DNA of 64,000 bases from Diprion similis (Eukaryota; Arthropoda; Insecta; Hymenoptera; Diprionidae): contig NC_060112.1 of the NCBI RefSeq assembly GCF_021155765.1, positions 12,772,001 through 12,836,000 on the forward strand, in the 5' to 3' direction. Below the pieces are notes generated by a model. That model was not told where the DNA came from. It searched no databases and was given only the letters and a program-made list of their open reading frames with translations. The stretch's first letter is position 1; each line of letters starts with the position of its first letter. This document shows positions 1 through 58,696 of the stretch, one piece after another. A program made the position numbers and the translations under genes.

Positions 1-420
1 AAAAACGTAATGCCGAATTTCTACTATTTCCTGCTTATATATTTCTGGTTGGCGCTTAGTAATATTATTGTTATTGGTATTATCGTTATACGATGTAATT
101 TATGTTTTAGCGTCTGACCTCTTATCTCTTATATGTATGCTGTGTGTGACATTGGTCGGCTCTGAACAAACTTTACAGTTCTAGAGTCGAATAAATATTC
201 CATCCGTCTATGTTCGTTGATTACGGGCCAAAAGAATAATCGGCTTTTTTTAACACGTGCGTGAAATAGACCTTTTTTCTTTCACGTAAAGTGGATGGAA
301 AATTGCTTTTACCACACCTGCGCGGAAAGTCCAACTTTCAGCCCCTCCCATAAACGGGAAGTTGTATTTTCAGATGCAGGGGGTGGCGATATGCAGCATA
401 CGTCACACGAGAGTCAAAAA

Positions 421-495
421 GGCTAGCCTAAACTGCGTTCCTGCTACCCTCACCTTCGGCTCGGGTTTCAATATTGCACGCAGTTTGGAATAGCC
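421..495. repeat. Imperfect inverted repeat (stem-loop)
   Basis: The left arm GGCTAGCCTAAACTGCGT (421-438) pairs with the right arm ACGCAGTTTGGAATAGCC (478-495) at 15 of 18 positions. They are separated by a 39-base loop rich in C and G. The block sits in a GC-rich island 1.1 kb before the recombinase start. Confidence 0.6.
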
Positions 496-538
496 TACTT
501 TTCCCCCCTAAGTGCGTAATACTTTGAGCGTGGACTTC

Positions 539-1215
539 ATTACCTCCCTGGGGAAATAATAGATATTAGCTTAGAGAAGTGTCCCCGAACCAGTCAGAGC
601 AAGGGACGTAGTAAGCCTACATCCCTTCTCTTTCTACGGCAGGAGCGTACCTATCGTAATTCAGTGCCCCGAGCATTGCATTGATATAATCCGGATAATA
701 TGAATACATATTATGTTCTAGTGCCTAGTGGGTGAGATTATTGAAAGAGACATGCAATAATATCAATTTTTAGCATATTTTAAAATTAAATAATATAATA
801 TATAAATGTGGAACGAGAATTTTCGCCGAAAAGTGTGATAAACAGATAAAATACTGAAACGTGAGATAAGTTTTTACAGAATAAGCTAAAAAATTCTAAT
901 AAATAACTTGCACGAAGAAACGCAATATTTTAACGGCACGATTTAGTAACTAAATGAAATTCAATAGGTACAACAACACCAACAGCAATGCTCTAACGTT
1001 TGTACGGTTTAAGTGTACAACATTCGGAGTTTGCGAGGCAGAGAAGGGACGTAGTGTTACTTCTTCCCTCTCTATGCCGTTTTCGATTTACACAAAAGGG
1101 TAGAGCCGGCGCCCTCCATGTCTGTATGCTCCAAGGATATTACCCACTTTATTACCTCCCTAGAGAAATAATGGGCATTATAACCCCCCCTACCCAGGGA
1201 AATAATGCAAACCAC
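539..1215. repeat. Two diverged copies of short sequence blocks
   Basis: Block A is ATTACCTCCCT followed by a G/A run and AAATAAT. It occurs near 540-562 and again near 1152-1173, with a partial inverted copy near 1192-1206. Block B begins AGGGACGTAGT and ends in a CTCT-rich tail with TACGGC or TATGCCG. It occurs near 601-641 and 1045-1080. The order of A and B differs between the two places, so this is not a simple tandem duplication. Block A is itself nearly palindromic. Confidence 0.45.
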
Positions 1216-1579
1216 ACCCAAAATGCGCCACGTCCCATCCACCCTACATCCCTACATGCACTATTATTCCCTTGTTGCATGTAGGTTTTTTATTCCCAAG
1301 TTAAATGTGGCCACTTTATTGACTTGAGAAGTGGATCCCACGCATTGAAACGGAGCATTTTAAATTTTCTGCGTCGCGGTCGGTGGTGCTGTTTTCATCA
1401 TTCGCGCATTGCGCATGCGTCTTGTGTAAGAGATCTCGATGGATCTCTAACTCGACCGTGGAAACGACTGTTTTTATGATAGTAGGATCGGTGCCCGGTA
1501 TGTAGTACGTAGAATTAAATTTGGTAGTTGATTTTTGTTGCATTTTTGATCGTGAAATATAATCAAATTTGTGTAGACA

Positions 1580-3064
1580 ATGTCATCGAGTGAAGACGAA
1601 AAGCAACATTTCACGTGCCAATCACCGGAGGTAATTAATATAAAAGAAGATTTCACGTGCGAATCACCCGAGTTCTTTGACGAAAAACAAGATTTTACAT
1701 GCACGTCACCGGAGTTGCTTGAAGCCGCAGATAATGTTAAAGTTGAATTGCTTCCTCAACAATCTCGAGAGCTGTATTGGTCTACGTATAATGCTTTTAT
1801 AGAATGGAAAGATGCGAACAGAGTAAAGACCATTTCAGAAAGTGTAATGTTGACTTATTTTGGTGTGTTAGCCAATAAATATAAACCTTCAACACTTTGG
1901 ACTAAATACTCAATGTTAAGAAGTACAATAAAAATCAAACACAACATTAAAGTTAAAAAGTTTACACGCCTATTGGCATTTTTAAAACAACAGAGCACTG
2001 GTTATGAAGCCAAAAAGTCAAAAGCATTAACTCTAGACAATGTGAAAAAGTTCTTGACTGATGCTCCGGATAAAACATACATGGTTACAAAGGTAATTCT
2101 AACCTATAAAGTATTTATTTATATATTATATTGCTTGTAAATTATGATTATAATAAACAAATATTTATTTTTTCTGTATATTGATATCAATAAGTTGTAA
2201 ATTGTTGTAAAATTTTAGGTCGCATTAATTTTTGGTTTATTTGGAGCTTGTCGAAATGGTGAATTATGTTCCCTCACTACTGATGATGTCATAGATCATG
2301 GCAAAATTATAGAAGTCACCTTAAAACATACAAAGAATAAGAGCACAAGAAATTTTTGCATTGAGGGAGAACCGCTTGGACTGGTTAAAGCTTATCGATC
2401 ACTACGCCCAGAAAATGCAACTGTGGATAGGTTCTTTTTGACATATAGAAATGGTAAATGTACCAATCAACCTCTTGGAAAAAATAAATTTGGTTCGATG
2501 CCAAAAGAAATAGCCAAATTTCTTCAGTTAGCGGATCCAGAGCAGTATACTGGCCATGCGTTTCGAAGATCATCAGCAACATTGTGTGCCGATCGAGGTA
2601 AAATGAAGATTTATAAGTATTAAATATCTTTCACAGTTGTTGGTGTAAATATTTTAAATTCATTTTGAATTTTTGGTATAGGCTTTACAATAACAGATTT
2701 TACAACTCTTGGTGGATGGACATCTTCAACGATAGCAGAGAGCTATATGAAAGATTCAATAAATCATAAAAGGAAAAGAAGCAGACAAATTACTGATGTT
2801 ATTGAGGGAACATCGCGCCAGGATGTAACGTCTCAACCAGAACCGAAAAGAACAAAATTACAAGTATCTGCCCAGTCAACTGCAAATATACAAAATATAT
2901 CTGATTTGATATCAAATAGAGATAATGTGTCTTTGAATATCGCACATCCAAATAACATCAATATCCATTTTCATAATTATAATTTTTTCTTGTTTTCTAT
3001 GTTTAAGTGTAATTATTTGATAAGTTTGGAATCTAAAATTTATTCTAAATCTATATTAATATAA
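1580..3064 (+). CDS. Crypton-like tyrosine recombinase (domesticated or transposon)
   Basis: Predicted 424-aa protein from exons 1580-2092, 2219-2597 and 2682-3064; all junctions are GT-AG and phase-consistent. The C-terminal half reads as a tyrosine recombinase/phage-integrase-type fold. Candidate catalytic residues are Arg183 in GACRNGEL, Lys207 or Lys210 in a LKHTKNK hairpin, His284 and Arg287 in GHAFRRSSAT, Trp310 in GGW and Tyr319 in AESYMKDS. This is the arrangement known from Crypton elements and their host-domesticated relatives. The N-terminus has three FTCxSPE repeats (about residues 10-40), then a helical region resembling a SAM-like core-binding domain. The tail after the catalytic Tyr is basic (NHKRKRSR), then low complexity, and the last 30 residues are hydrophobic, so a further splice or a different 3' end is possible. 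Whether this is a mobile element or a host gene cannot be told from one copy. The family call is firm; the exact ends are less so. Confidence 0.75.
1600..1713 (+). repeat. Threefold FTCxSPE coding repeat
   Basis: Three in-frame copies of the heptad FTC-[QET]-SPE lie within the first 46 residues of the recombinase protein, about 14 codons apart. The DNA of the copies is still similar (for example TTTCACGTGC in the first two), which suggests recent internal duplication or selection for a short linear motif. The acidic residue before F and the SPE core could be a phosphorylation or docking site; that is inference. Confidence 0.6.
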
Positions 3065-4037
3065 AATAAAGTAGTTCAAAATTAAAAAAAGAGAGAAAAG
3101 CAGAAAAACTAAAATCGCATGTGTGGGAAAAAAGTGCTACTTCTTTTCCCCCTGAGTGAAAGGAAAAAAGTAAATTTGCAGGAAAATAGTATAAGAGGGA
3201 ATTAAATGTTACTTTTGTCCCTTTTTTTCAGGCCATTAAAATGACCATTACAGTGCAATCAGGAATAAAATCTATGACACGATATTCTGAATGACCAAAA
3301 ATGTAAAGCATCCGAGTTTTTAAAAGTAAATCATGTCCATTGGGCTACATTTTTCAATTACGTAAAACAGTGATTGGTATTTTATTTCTTTTTATTGTAT
3401 TGAAAAGAAATGATCAAAATATAAAAAGAAGTGTAAATACTGATTCTTTTTTAATTATTCTGTACACGTGATATTCTTGAAATACTATAAGTTTCTTAAA
3501 GCCATCATTAATGTTGATGTGCACTTTTAAACCAAAACAAAGAAAGAAAAAATCGTAACTAATATTCAAGTTGGTGGCGGAAAATATACCAATCCATGAA
3601 AGTTTTGATTAAGTACCGAAATCACTTTTATCGTATCTTATTTTCTGTAATTAAACTTACTCTTGTGCAACAATAATTTTGGCAGTTTATATGGAGTTCC
3701 TTCAAGCTTACTCTTTTTGAACTTTCCACACCTAGACTTGGATTAAGGATGGAACAACGCTATTGGGATGTAAAAATTTAAAGGAACGTACTGTAATTTT
3801 ACTGTACGGCACTATAAATTGTATTGCAGGTTTTTGCTTTTAATAACCCGAGTCTACACGTAGTTTTAATCCTAGGATCCTCAAATTTGAATAATTTGTA
3901 TATGAAACAAGTAATCATTATGGTTTCGGGAATGGTGAGAACAGGAATATTTGGCTCTAGTTATATACTCTTACATTTCATTTAACCGTCGTTTAATGAC
4001 ATCATAATCAAAGGTTTCTGGCATTATTTGATTTCAG
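3065..4037. other. Intergenic, no feature seen
   Basis: AT-rich sequence. Around 3120-3175 there are short self-complementary GGGAAAA/TTTTCCCC stretches. The string CTACTT-TTTTCCCCC here resembles one near 500-518 on the far side of the recombinase gene. The missing first exon of the uridylyltransferase may lie in or before this region, but I could not pick it. Confidence 0.4.
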
Positions 4038-7023
<2,986 letters not shown>

Positions 7024-39661: not shown

Positions 39662-40258
39662 TCAGTCGACAACCTCCATGCCTTGTTGAGAATTAAGAAA
39701 GGTAATTACAGTCATAGCTACAGTTGTAGCCACAGACGGGTTTTGAACAACATTTATAGCAAACTGAGCTGCATCTTGTATTTGAACAGAGCTAAGACAT
39801 TTACGGACTGCATCAGCAAGATCACGTTGTTGCTGTGGTGTAAGTTCGTACAAAATTACGTCTGTAATTGATTTAAATTTACTCCTCGCCATGTAAGCTG
39901 CGGAACATCCTCCAATTGTACCTCCTAGAACATGATACAACAAATGGAAATGGTAGTAAATTTCAAGGTAATACCAAGTAAAAGAGTAGCAATATGCTAT
40001 AGATATAGTAAATGTATTAATCAACTTGAATATGATTTTTCCAAAAATAGTAATAATAGCAGTTTATATATTGTTACAGTGTGTGTACAACTGTATACCA
40101 ATAGCTAATCCTATAGGACCGAAGAAGAGACCACCAGCCAGCGTTGACATTCCAGTTATCGCTGCTCCCTTAAAGCTTTCTTTTAAGCTGACATGAACAC
40201 TTCGAAGTTCAGTGAGTCTGGACACCTCCCATAGCAGTTCTCTTGCAGCCATCTCCAT
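39662..40258 (-). CDS. C19orf12-like membrane protein, copy 1
   Basis: Homolog of human C19orf12, a small glycine-zipper membrane protein of mitochondria, ER and lipid-droplet contacts; its loss causes MPAN neurodegeneration in people. Minus-strand exons 40258-40099 and 39924-39662 give 140 aa, near the short human isoform (141). The hydrophobic glycine-rich hairpin GGLFFGPIGLAIGGTIGG is split by the intron inside the second half. It is followed by an alpha-helical C-terminus with ILYELTPQQQRDLADAVRKC. The junction gives GLAIG|GTIGGC with correct phase. Copy 2 lies 2 kb further along on the same strand with the same intron position, so the pair arose by tandem duplication. The biochemical function of the family is not settled. 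Confidence 0.88.
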
Positions 40259-42309: not shown

Positions 42310-43249
42310 TCAGACTTCTGTTATAGTGAGATTCATAACTTTCATATTTTGGGATTCTATGAAATCAGTTACAGTCTTAGCTACAAGTTCGGAAAGACCT
42401 GGGTTTTGAGCGACCAAAAGATCAAAATCGTCGGTACTTTGCATTCTAATCAATCGGAGGCATTCACGGATTTGTGCAGCAAGCTCACACTTTTGATTTT
42501 CTGCGAATTTCATCATAATTACATCAGGGATTGATTCTAAGTTTTCCATCGTAAAGTAAACTGCCGAACCTCCCCCAATTATGGCTCCTGAAAAATGAAA
42601 CAAGTGTAAGGAAGGTAGTAAATTTTAAAGTAATTTGAGGTAAAAAAAACCAATATAAATAAACTATTAACCCTATTAGATCACTGGTGGTGAATTTCAC
42701 ACCAAACATTATTCAAACTCCCAGTAAAGTCTCTTAGTCATCGAAATGGGCTTTTTGGCGCCATTCTTCATGCGAAGTAAAGACCTTTTTCGACATTTTT
42801 GGCACTTTCTCTAACTTTGGTGCTGTTTTACAATATTTAAAAATCAATTTCGGCAGAAAAACTGAGAGAGTTTTTTCTGCCATCCTTAGTATTAGATACA
42901 CAATAATTAGATATTGTTCTTACAATTAGAATTTTCGAACTCATTTTTTAAGCAAAGTATCACGATTGGGGTGAATTTAACTCTGACCATTTTGCGATTC
43001 TATTGGGATGTGACCTATTAGGGTTAAATAAATTTTCGTTTTGATTGAAATATAATTGATGATAAACGATAATTTTATACCAATTGCTATTCCAATAGGG
43101 CTGATTAAACTACCAATCGTTCCAGCAGTTATCATTAATACTCCAATTTTTGCGATTCTTGTGTACTTTCCAGATACACCAACAACACCATATTTAAGCT
43201 GGGGTAGTTCTGATACTTTCCACAAAAGTTCCCTTGTCGTTATCTCCAT
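42310..43249 (-). CDS. C19orf12-like membrane protein, copy 2
   Basis: Second member of the tandem pair. Minus-strand exons 43249-43081 and 42587-42310 give 148 aa. It opens MEITTRELLWKVSELPQLK, clearly related to MEMAARELLWEVSRLTELR of copy 1. The intron lies at the same codon (GIAIG|GAIIGGG), and the glycine-rich hairpin SLISPIGIAIGGAIIGGGSA fills the same place. The C-terminal half is well diverged, and the intron is 493 bp compared with 174 bp in copy 1. Both copies keep open frames and intact splice sites, so neither looks like a pseudogene. A role at mitochondrial or ER membranes is inferred from the family. Confidence 0.85.
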
Positions 43250-45292: not shown

Positions 45293-48200
45293 ATGAACTC
45301 GTTAGTGTGGATATGTCTCACACTATTGGGGCAATGTTATATAGGAATTAGTGCACAGGGTCAAAGAGTTGCACCGGGAGTTCCACCCCAACATTATCAA
45401 CAGGTTTGTAAGAAACACTTTACTCGTATCCATTTGATTTCATTGACCTATTTCTGTTCAGGATATTGTACTTAAATCTTCTTTGTAGCCACCACAGCCG
45501 CATCAGGTTCATCAGCAGCAACAAATCCATCAGCAACAACAAATCCACCAGCAGCAAGTTCATCAACAACAACAGGTGATTAATCACATGGAACTTTTCA
45601 TTTTTTTGTTGAACAGAATTATTTACTGCAAAATATGTTAGCAAAAATCGAACCAGGCCAAAAATAGTAGGTTCCGATCTTTGATAATGACAAAGTATAT
45701 CATCAAAATTTGAGATCTTTATCTAGAATTGTTTCGGAGATAGTGTAAATGCAAACACATCTTAAAATTATCAAAAGTCATATCTTGACCTGAAATTAAT
45801 ACTTTTCTTTTCACCAAAAGCGATGAAGAGTAAAAAAATTTGCTTAGTTATATCAGTTGTTATAAAGTATCTTGCACTGTTTGTTTTACATCATTTATTT
45901 CATATCATAGTTATGCATATATCGGTTATCTACTCAAAGGAATATTTAGGTAATGGATCTATGCTCGTGCTCTCATGAATCAGGTAATAATTCATTTTTT
46001 ACTTAGATCGAATTTTAAAATCCTTGCTCGTTATAGTCTGCTTGGGATCATAGATTTCCAGGTATATGTGACTAACAGAATTTTTGGATAGATGCAATTT
46101 TCAAATACCCTGGGAGAAACATGTATAATTTACTACTATATTTTATTTTTGTGATCGTTTCATCGTAATCTCATGAAGGAGTGAATTGTCAGTTTCTTTA
46201 CACAATGTTCTTTGCTTATAGTTTCAGCAAGTACCAGTGCAACAAGTTCCTGTACAACCAGTTCCCCTCCAGCAGCAACCTCAAGTTCAACATGTGCCGG
46301 TACCACAGCAACAGCAGCAACAACAACAACAACAACAACAAGTGCCACATGGTCATAACCATGGGGTACCACAGCCAGGACAAATTCTCAATGCTGCAAA
46401 CATTGAGCATGAAAAGGCGTAAGTCCAGATTCAAAATTTTATATATGATTGATAGTAAAAGTGTGAGTCATATCACTTTGTAACTTTTTTCAAAATCATA
46501 GTAATATTGTATGCATAGTAATATTGTAATGCTATTGATTATTATAAAAAATAGTACAAGATCCTTTAAACATATTACTTTAAATTTTTCATTACTTATT
46601 TTGAGAACACTTTATACTGCAGTATTTAATCAAAGAAATAGCTACTGTCGATTCTTGAATTATTACAATAATTTTTATCCAGAACTATCCAAAAAAGGGA
46701 ATAAACAATGTATATTACCTTAACTTGGTATCTCTTTTTTGCAATCAGACACATAGCAGAGCACATGGAAATACCTATGGACACAAATAAAATGACGGAT
46801 CAGGAGTTACAGTTCCATTATTTCAAAATGCATGATGCAGACAATAATAACAAATTAGATGGTTGTGAGCTTATAAAATCTCTCATCCATTGGCACGGTA
46901 TGTACTTCAATTAGTTTTATTTATCAATTTTTCACTTTGGTGAAGGGGATACAGTGTTTTTTTTTACATATTTGAGAACTTAAATTTGCCATAGTATTTG
47001 ATGCAATTGTGAATCGTTCAAATATATGATGTAATTATACGTATTATATAAGATGCGTCCCGTCTCAGCAGGGTACATGTATGGTTGAAATTATTTAATT
47101 CAATTATTCAATTAATCCCTTCTTTTTCAATAATTCTTGGAGTCAAAATCAATGATTGATACCAGATTAATCAAAGCTACGCGAATAATTGAATTCATAT
47201 GCTGGAATGTTGAAAAAGACTCTACCAATGTTTATTCAGTAGAGCGTTGATTAGCCGAACGCCAATTATTCGAATGGTGATTTGGTTTATCCAAAACGAC
47301 CAATCATCTGAATGAAGATTCGGTTCAATGGAAATGTCAGTATGTGGAATATAATCCAGTTTAAACTTTCGTTTTTTCGAATAACAGATTGTTAAATAAA
47401 TTATTGCGCGACATCGTGAGGTCAGACTTTCATGGTGTACCTCCCCTCCACCTGCCTGACCTGAACTTGCACACATTCGGTTTCCAGTGTCAATCGTTAC
47501 TCGCCTGCAAAGCGTAAAAAAGCAAGCCCTGATATTGGATCTTATGTTTTATGTACAGTAATGTTTAGAAATGCCTTGGGCTTCCGGCTAACTTGTTTTT
47601 GGTCCGAAACAAAACTCAAGGTTGATTCTATACAAAGTATGTGACAATGACTCCCAATCTATCACGTTGGCTGCATTGCCAGTCATTGTCACATAATTTG
47701 TATAGAATCGGGCTCGCATTTTGTTTTGGACCAAAAAGATGTTAGCCGGATACCCAAGGCATTAATGAACGGTACTGTAGGTATTCTATTACGTTCAAGG
47801 AATTAGCATTTTTTTTTCCAAACTGTTCGGTTATTATTTGAATTTTCAACTATCCGAATGATGTCTGGTCCCAATTAATTCAGATAATCAACTCTCTACT
47901 GTATACGTCTTTTCTAATATGCTGTACTTTATGAACAATTTTTATAGGCTATATTATTATTCGAGTTGTGTTCTAAAGATTACTTTCAAGGTATTACCTT
48001 TGAGCTCTTGAGATTGAAGTAAGATGATTTTGATCAAACCTTGTCTAAAGATACAATTATTAATATGGCCCAATAGGTGGTTCAATAAACTTATTTAGTT
48101 AGGATTCAAGCAGCCTTTTTTTAGTATTGCTCTTAATGTGGAAGTTTGTAACGAAAAGTTGTGAAGACATTTGAAAAACTTTGATTTTTAAGCCTAGCTT

Positions 48201-55733: not shown

Positions 55734-58696
55734 ATGTTTGCGGTTTCTTGTAGTTGTATATTATTTTTGCTAATAAGGCTCAGTACAGCTGATCATATGA
55801 TGCAATTGGTTATCAATGCGTTTTCTGAATACAATTCAGTTCACTGCCACATTTTACTATTTTCGAGTTCTGGTATATTCTATGAGCAAAGAGCATTGGT
55901 CGATTTTTATAGAGCTGCTATACTGAATAATTATACACCAACAGTCATGGAGAATATAATTGACGAAACTGGAAAAAACAATACCTTCTACAGCCGAAAC
56001 CAATGCGTTAGACCGCTCAGATCATTTATTATGGGTAATGTTAGTAACATCGCCAAGTATATGGTAAGACAAATAATATTTGATATAATTTGTGTGCTTT
56101 AATTTTTTTTTTAAATCTCGAATATTGATCAATGATGCTAATATTACTTAAAATCTTTAGTATTTAGCCAAACTTTGAAGGTTTATACGAAAAATTGATA
56201 AAATTTTCTTAGGTAATAGCAGAAAGGAGTAAAAATACATTAAAAGATATATGGTTATTGTTTGTAAAAGACAGTTATGAACAAGAACTGATAATCAGTC
56301 AAGTAGAACTTTCGATAAGAAGCGAAGTATACATAGCTAGACGAACAGTTGATGGATATGAATTTTGGGAAATTTATCAAACTGCTAAGAAAGAGTCAAT
56401 TCGTGCAATCTATTATGGTAATTGGACCATCGATGCAGGTTTATCTGTAACGGAATTGAGCGTATTGGAGCGACGAAATAATTTCAGAGGAGCTGTTCTT
56501 CGTGCTATTATGTTTGAAACGGTAGTTGCAATGTCAATACTGGCCTCTAGTATCACCTATTGTGTACCAATAAAAAGAGATTTGCAAATGAATTTCAGGA
56601 CAGATATACTAAAACTAAGGAAAGTCTTCAAACAAGATTAATGAAATGTGTTTGGAATTTGCTCGAAGAGAAGTTAAACTTTACGTGAGTAACATCAGAT
56701 CCAAAGATCTAGTGCAGCTATACACAAGTTCGTGCTCATGTTTCACATGTTTGCTCATGTTTCTACAGGACAAAACCTGTGGTCTTGTTAGATAGTTATT
56801 CGGAACATCAAGTTCACAATAATAACTGGAACGACATAATTTTTGGATTATTAGCTAAGAATAAAGCAGACGTATCCATGGTAGCCCCCTCGGCAGAGTC
56901 CTTTAGCCCACATATTATAGATCAGAGTGGCCTCCTTGACAAAACTGAGTATGTTTGTGATTGAGGCATGAGTGTATCATAAACTCCTGTATTTATTAGA
57001 TACAGTCACTAGTCGAATTTAATAAATAAACTCATTTAATTAAAGGTATAGAATATTTATAAAAAAATACGAAGTTGGTCTGGACTCATGGTTTCATTTT
57101 TTCGATCCATTGAGACCAAATGTATGGTACGTGACAGTTTTAATGACTGTTATGTTGTCGGTGATGATACTATTGATGAATCGTATTGCCTGCAAAGTTG
57201 GCCTTATTAAATCTCGGTATTATTATTCAGATGTGTGTATTGCACTACACCGCATGTTATGCTTACAAGGTGCGTATCTTATATAGTTTTACATAAAATC
57301 AATCAGGTAATCAACACTTTATTACTACTTTCATTACCGTTATGCATTCTATTACGACTAGATGTTATAATGTTCTCTTTGTTATATGCAGGAGGAGATA
57401 TACAACAAGAACTGTCTTCCATGAGTCTGCTATTTGTGTTTATAAATTTTTGGACATACTTAATTCAAATCATGTATTCCGCTGCTTTGGCTTCGAGCAT
57501 GGCTATCAAACACTACGAAGTTCCATTTCACTCATTGAAAGAACTTCTGGCAGATGGCAATTACGAATTCGGTGTTCATCGATACAGCACAGAATACGCT
57601 CTTTTTTACGTAAATAAAAATTTTGTTCTATTTTATTAAAAAATAAGTTATTTATTTTTTTACGTTTTTTAAATTTAGTTTATTCTATTCAAGAGTATTG
57701 ATTACAGAGAACGAATGATACGTTTCTTATGAAATTGAATACAGCTGTGATGGAGCAAAATGTGTCTAAGCTACCAACAACATATTTAGAAGGACTGAAA
57801 CGAGTTTGTTCTGAAAACAAATATGCTTTTATGGCTGGCAAACTGCATGTTTTTGAATTACAATCTCAATTACCTTGCGAGCTTCACTACTTAACAGATG
57901 AAGAATATACAGTGAATAGTGCCTATGCTATGTCTAAACATAATGAGTATTTGCCCCTCATCAATGGATGGTAAGATAAAACAGAGTGTATGAGGCGGTT
58001 CCATCTCAGTTGGATACTTTTTCTGAGCATAAGTTTTTCATTAAAGCGTGATTCTAAAATTTCTGCCAATTAAAGGGTAAAACATTTGCATTCCCAAATT
58101 ACCTTTGAAAATATTCTTCAAACAACAAGAAGCAAAGATGGAAATTCAAAGATTGATCCACACGCACAGAAGTTTTCACCTTTTTCAAAATTGTCGCAAG
58201 ATAAATATCTACTAAATCATTCTACTACTGGGTAAATGACTAAACCACTAGAAATTGTTTTCTTCTCAGTTAAGAACCAAAATTTCATACGCTTTAAAAT
58301 GACAGTCTCATTTACCGAAAAGTGATCCGGATGAGCTAGACCCCCTAATGCAGTATGACTATGACTGCCTATGAGAGATTCATATTGCTACAAAAGCATC
58401 AGGAATTTGTTGAATATGCACGATAGTGACACACTAAATAATTTTTCCGCAGGTTGTGCAAATTAAAGGAAGCTGGGTTGATAAGCAAAATTAATAGCGA
58501 CGTGCTAGGGCTTAGACAACATTTCTCGGATGATTCGCGGACTTTTAAAAGCAGAGAACTTCAAGATACAATCATTTTACAACTTCTGTTTATTGTAGGT
58601 ATTATACTATCGATTGTGACACTTTGTGCCGAAAGAACATATAACAGGATGAGAAGAAATGGTCTAAAAGCAAGAACTACTTCTGTTCACAGTTAG
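55734..58696 (+). CDS. Divergent ionotropic receptor (chemosensory iGluR family)
   Basis: Ligand-gated cation channel subunit of the arthropod IR family, expected in dendrites of chemosensory neurons. Exons 55734-56063, 56213-56521, 56599-56684, 56769-56948, 57046-57269, 57392-57609, 57708-57970 and 58453-58696 give 617 aa. The signal peptide is about residues 1-19. A short amino-terminal domain follows, then S1, with TM1 at about 326-346 (VWYVTVLMTVMLSVMILLMN), the pore region, TM2 at about 387-410 ending in IMYSAALASSMAI (the IR version of SYTASL), S2 beginning VPFHSLKELL, and TM3 near 571-592. The glutamate-binding residues of iGluRs are not conserved, as in most IRs. The 77-bp intron at 56522-56598 is in an open frame and easily missed; without it the protein truncates. 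NFRGAVLRA and the fold suggest the antennal IR75-like group, but that is tentative. Confidence 0.88.

Follow-up and report, generated by a model that had tools for sequence, protein, structure and literature searches.

The window analyzed here, a 64-kb stretch of Diprion similis DNA, carries on its forward strand a predicted three-exon gene for a tyrosine recombinase, followed on the same strand by a gene for UTP-glucose-1-phosphate uridylyltransferase (UDPGP). Exon 1 (1580–2092; residues 1–171) contains the ATG, three 14-residue repeats, a probable N-terminal helical (core-binding, SAM-like) domain, and the start of the catalytic domain; exon 2 (2219–2597) encodes the part of the catalytic domain with R183 (codon at 2252–2254), K207, K210 (2333–2335), H284 (2555–2557), and R287 (2564–2566); and exon 3 (2682–3064) adds W310 (2717–2719), the putative nucleophile Y319 (2744–2746), a KRKRSR stretch (2768–2785), the C-terminal tail, and a TAA stop codon (3062–3064). 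The predicted introns, both GT–AG, lie at 2093–2218 (126 nt, phase 0) and at 2598–2681 (84 nt, phase 1, between the H-x-x-R motif and the W and Y positions). Both are multiples of three in length, yet they contain three and two in-frame stops, respectively, and their G+C content is 15% and 20%, versus 29–38% for the exons. As the preliminary description had proposed, the three exons are phase-consistent and join without stop or frameshift (1275 nt, i.e., 424 residues plus TAA), and all seven of the active-site residues it had named are found at the positions it gave.

The reading frame was compared with sequences simulated by a first-order Markov model trained on the local flanks: 5000 such sequences contain on average 28 stops over 1275 nt and never fewer than 11, while the recombinase frame has none. 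The codon periodicity of the whole frame was equalled by 0 of 1000 shuffles, and that of exons 1, 2, and 3 by 1, 4, and 2 of 1000; the corresponding counts for non-coding sequence are 252 for the introns, 113 for the upstream flank, and a borderline 30 for the downstream flank. Third-position G+C is 0.278 in the recombinase gene and 0.283 in a long RanBP2-type exon elsewhere in the window. At the level of sequence, the three-exon model is confirmed. It should be noted that the last ∼180 nt of exon 3 show no significant periodicity (116 of 1000 shuffles), so that the last ∼60 residues lack independent coding support and are the least certain part of the protein.

Outside the catalytic domain, the 14-residue repeats correspond to three in-frame 42-nt tandem repeats (1598–1723; residues 7–48), each with the motif K[QE][HD]FTCxSPE. 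Pairwise comparison of the copies gives pS values of 0.48–0.63 and pN values of 0.21–0.25 (14 codons in three copies, with 7–8 synonymous sites); pS thus exceeds pN by a factor of two to three, which faintly suggests purifying selection on the protein. Residues 51–114 match PF13495 at E 0.0099, below Pfam’s cut-off, and a low-confidence single-sequence structure model of exon 1 (mean pLDDT 42.7) has helices at residues 60–79, 87–100, 103–119, and 125–139; this model and that of exon 2 (38.8) were set aside as too weak for use. The basic KRKRSR stretch after Y319 is a possible nuclear signal, and an AATAAA directly 3′ of the stop codon (3065–3070) reads as a possible polyadenylation signal. In front of the gene, we infer that a G+C- and CpG-rich block at 1350–1460 (G+C 0.495, CpG observed/expected 1.78, with TGCGCATGCG at 1410–1419) may be a promoter.

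Profile searches place the protein within the tyrosine recombinases at E values far beyond chance, in agreement with the preliminary description. PF00589 (Phage_integrase) matches residues 149–323 at E 9.2e-13, scoring 48.8 bits where 27.1 are required, and is the only Pfam family above its cut-off, PF13495 and DUF3091 both falling below theirs; PHROG_1 (integrase) matches residues 63–379 at E 1.7e-25 and PHROG_216 gives E 4.9e-16. A model of archaeal XerA matches residues 60–326 at E 9.3e-10, but its score of 38.5 bits is far below the equivalog cut-off of 220, so that the recombinase is related to XerA without being that equivalog. The R-K-H-R-(H/W)-Y order is complete (R183, K210, H284, R287, W310, and Y319), and in a weak phmmer match to XerA (4a8e_A; E 0.013, and weaker still, E 0.11, with the core alone) these residues align with R, K, H, R, H, and Y, which we take to be the catalytic residues of XerA. 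Because K210 pairs with the XerA lysine in this alignment, it is a likelier catalytic lysine than K207. The fifth catalytic position is a tryptophan, as in Cre. The sequence thus supports a tyrosine recombinase whose active-site set is complete, and the protein carries the residues needed for the chemistry of this family. The Pfam search recognized no C-terminal GCR1_C or C48 peptidase domain in the recombinase, and no match to GCR1_C, the CryptonF domain, was found with a Pfam copy containing that model. DUF3504 (PF12012), whose model is likewise present in the Pfam copy, gave no match at E up to 1, a setting at which the search filters remove most matches above about 0.1.

The recombinase gene ends 974 nt upstream of the first recognized exon of UDPGP (4038–4274; PF01704, E 3.6e-62 with a partial translation of the joined exons), although it may possibly sit in an unrecognized 5′ intron of UDPGP rather than upstream of it. 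A recombinase–UDPGP fusion was considered; with a possible first UDPGP coding exon that ends in an ATG at 3932–3934 and has the donor GTGAGA, we infer that a separate gene is likelier. Farther downstream lie arfaptin, Rad51-type, and RanBP2-type genes, as well as probable ionotropic receptor exons at 56213–56638 and 57211–57636 (IR75a N-terminal domain, E 2.7e-9; Lig_chan, E 0.0087, below cut-off), a receptor type suggestive of an insect host, and the window also contains pseudouridine synthase and C19orf12-like frames, both below the Pfam cut-offs. By its gene content, the window resembles a normal, gene-rich part of a chromosome rather than a virus or plasmid. No Rfam family is found in it. 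Some other repeats were seen in passing. Positions 39795–39983 and 42458–42645 are 70% identical and carry reverse-strand frames, one of them weakly C19orf12-like (E 0.0039, below cut-off); they are possibly tandem paralogues. A 226-nt near-palindrome at 47554–47779, which shares 79% identity with its reverse complement, starts with TACAGTA, ends with TACTGTA, and resembles a foldback element or a mariner-type MITE, and a stretch at 5041–5160 (CAGTAGAACTCC...), apparently within a UDPGP intron, is reminiscent of decayed mariner/pogo MITEs.

In the 64-kb window, neither tblastn with the protein nor blastn with positions 1–4100 detected a further copy beyond the locus itself. Element ends were sought by direct and inverted alignment of the flanks, followed by seven comparisons against 300 shuffles each. 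No firm ends emerged: four of the five flank-to-flank comparisons are ordinary (equalled in 102, 101, 48, and 103 of 300 shuffles), and the remaining one, an imperfect inverted match between 225–322 and 3116–3221, was equalled in 2 of 300 shuffles of a stretch that had been chosen after the alignment had shown it. This pair is the best lead for candidate terminal sequences. Within the upstream flank, an imperfect 46-nt inverted pair (586–631/1040–1085) and a direct pair (534–568/1146–1180) were equalled in 1 and 5 of 300 shuffles, and the repeated word ATTACCTCCCTRGRGAAATAATR, a pattern drawn from its own copies at 539–561 and 1151–1173, occurred twice in 0 of 100 shuffles. These degenerate repeated words between 534 and 1180 may possibly be what is left of an old non-autonomous element; the stretch 480–1320, folded as one strand, surpasses all 20 of its shuffles in stability (z = −2.5), as would suit the remains of a repeat upstream of the gene. 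An inverted repeat with 19-nt arms and a 39-nt loop at 420–496 is a possible further repeat remnant.

Short palindromes are found near 599–630, 1037–1079, and 3125–3150; folded as DNA, they were matched by 1, 0, and 0 of 200 shuffles, respectively, while three other stretches folded alongside them are ordinary (75, 189, and 50 of 200). They share the words AAGGGACGTAGT and AGTGYTACTTCTT, each present twice, the patterns having been drawn from the copies. A count of palindromes of fixed quality gives 17 in the window, versus 7–14 in eight simulated sequences, and two of the 17 (600–628 and 1424–1453) fall within 1–4030, where about one is expected by length. The three palindromes look like pairs of recombinase half-sites, and we regard them as a lead rather than as called sites.

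Relatives were sought in several collections. With an E limit of 0.1, tblastn returned 38 plasmid records (best E 1e-6), and the 20 listed among these 38 show 21–29% identity to plasmid integrases over up to 67% of the query; against phages it returned six under that limit (24–29% identity, best E 4e-4), and blastn gave no match. Where annotated, the phage and plasmid matches are distant integrases. Viral contigs, scanned twice with peptides and once with a motif, yielded no relative, the sole hit (L001) being an out-of-frame match that overlaps a long phage frame and was dismissed as chance, and peptide and motif scans of prokaryote genome contigs detected none either.

The preliminary description had taken eukaryotic tyrosine recombinases to be either Cryptons or genes derived from them, a premise that is incomplete: excerpts of the family analysis of Kojima and Jurka (2011; PMC3212892) also list DIRS/Pat, Ngaro, and VIPER retrotransposons, the 2-micron plasmid, and Tec elements as carriers, and according to excerpts of a further report (PMC10871703) nimaviruses carry them too, two crustacean ones with predicted multi-exon recombinases. 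With DIRS/Ngaro elements and large DNA viruses thus among the carriers, the gene could be a fragment of a DIRS/Ngaro retrotransposon or stem from a large DNA virus (nudivirus or nimavirus-like) that has become endogenous, and the multi-exon nimavirus genes lend this some plausibility. However, of the 33 stop-to-stop frames of at least 45 residues that overlap positions 1–4030, the three exon frames included, none outside the exons is longer than 95 residues, and in the 11 further frames that were scanned with Pfam there is no reverse transcriptase, RNase H, or viral replication domain, but only matches to DUF1977, DKCLD, and TM_ErbB1, all below Pfam’s cut-offs. (The DUF1977 match, at E 0.0025, is in a frame on the reverse strand that spans the start codon and is taken as chance.) Moreover, the peptide and motif scans detected no relative in the viral collection, and all the named neighbouring genes are cellular. 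Although a DIRS/Ngaro fragment may begin upstream of the window, outside the frames scanned, we consider such an origin highly improbable.

The gene is instead probably the sole enzyme of a low-copy, CryptonI-like insect Crypton DNA transposon, an assignment made by anatomy and elimination only, from published descriptions of Cryptons. The recombinase-only anatomy, the intact frame with its codon periodicity, and the host-gene setting argue for this reading; the single copy in 64 kb and the lack of firm ends argue against it, but both weigh little either way, since terminal repeats are reported to be lacking in animal Cryptons, and Cryptons to remain mostly at very low copy number (PMC3212892). 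That a Crypton was domesticated into a host gene, with its active site kept complete and a role in site-specific DNA binding or recombination, seems to us rather unlikely: it would fit the intact frame, the single copy in the window, the place in a gene-rich stretch, 974 nt upstream of the first recognized UDPGP exon and behind a CpG-rich block, and the N-terminal repeats, whose excess of pS over pN across 14 codons in three copies hints at purifying selection, yet all of these are equally expected of an intact transposon copy. Furthermore, excerpts of the family analysis describe all six human DUF3504 genes as lacking the tyrosine and the second arginine (PMC3212892), and the recombinase has no DUF3504 match. 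More doubtful still is a recently dead or immobile single relic of a Crypton, intact through youth and not through selection; the single copy without firm ends and the low third-position G+C could be read in this way, though the RanBP2-type exon is as low, and the absence of stops, frameshifts, or loss of catalytic residues and the excess of pS over pN in the repeats speak against it.

Cryptons of fungi contain introns, and similar proteins are probably abundant in other insects. Since introns are thus known from fungal Cryptons, and since nimavirus recombinases are reported as multi-exon, the presence of introns does not discriminate, nor is it by itself a pointer to domestication. A transposon and a host gene cannot be told apart by introns, low copy number, or an intact active site. 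As to the earlier suggestion that the gene is a good candidate for either a recently active element or a domesticated gene, nothing in our analysis shows recent activity, and for domestication there is a weak hint only, that is, the excess of pS over pN in the repeats.

The chemistry of the superfamily, summarized in part in PMC3212892, consists of tyrosine attack on DNA followed by paired strand exchange. If the recombinase behaves like its family, it would enter the nucleus and bind inverted half-sites at the recombining ends, Y319 would attack the DNA and form a phosphotyrosyl link, strands would be exchanged in pairs, and the element would leave as a circle and reinsert at a short matching sequence. 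A circular intermediate has been proposed for Cryptons. Excerpts of the 2011 family analysis describe their transposition as unstudied at that time (PMC3212892), and a copy from an insect that looks intact and has its exons defined is therefore a usable start for testing whether animal Cryptons leave as circles. Should the gene instead prove to be conserved in the host, it would be one of the rare cases of a tyrosine recombinase domesticated with a complete active site; a still more specific idea, to which we give little credence, is that this gene is conserved among insects as a single copy, descends from a Crypton, and retains the ability to cut DNA, acting at fixed sites on the chromosomes. 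If true, this would make it an animal recombinase that is site-specific and programmed.

In terms of fold family, the protein resembles XerA, XerD, and the Int of 6en0, 6emy, and 6emz, which we take to be Tn1549 Int, and it shares its catalytic positions with XerA; unlike it, however, these proteins are prokaryotic and they are distant, the Int matches (E 0.22–0.57) not being significant alone. The DUF3504 genes (KCTD1, KIAA1958, WOC/ZMYM, and QRICH1) are likewise Crypton-derived and in host genomes, but, as excerpts of the family analysis have it, they have lost catalytic residues and carry the domain within longer proteins (PMC3212892), whereas here the active-site set is complete. The recombinase in an ATF7IP intron of birds, with an intact frame in zebra finch (PMC3212892, excerpts), is similar in being in the neighbourhood of a host gene, though it lies within the ATF7IP intron while the present gene lies upstream of UDPGP, or possibly in its 5′ intron. 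Among the titles and abstract openings listed in a literature search, whose lists were limited in length and included few subscription journals, there was no domesticated, catalytically intact insect Crypton gene, a weak sign that none is known.

The closest likeness by description is with CryptonI, reported only from insects, and CryptonA, reported from various animals; the excerpts of the family analysis describe animal Cryptons as having a recombinase only, without a C-terminal domain and without terminal repeats, and three CryptonA-type recombinases as matching DUF3504 (Kojima and Jurka, 2011; PMC3212892). Here, too, the tyrosine recombinase is the only domain recognized and neither a C-terminal domain nor terminal repeats were found; unlike those three CryptonA-type recombinases, the Diprion similis protein does not match DUF3504, and beside these likenesses the present gene has three exons and an N-terminal array of 14-residue repeats. 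Surveys, as far as their excerpts go, differ on how widely Cryptons occur: one of arthropods counts Crypton as a superfamily shared by every species it investigated (PMC6327564), whereas a nematode-centred one with outgroups accepts a single Crypton, from a sea anemone, and takes a Nasonia match as contamination (PMC4157794). A survey of the aphid Schlechtendalia chinensis counted 1929 Crypton elements that are incomplete (PMC9783078, excerpts), and a copy that looks intact is thus a useful addition. On the likeliest reading, an insect Crypton recombinase is of a kind already described, and the present gene is a further one.
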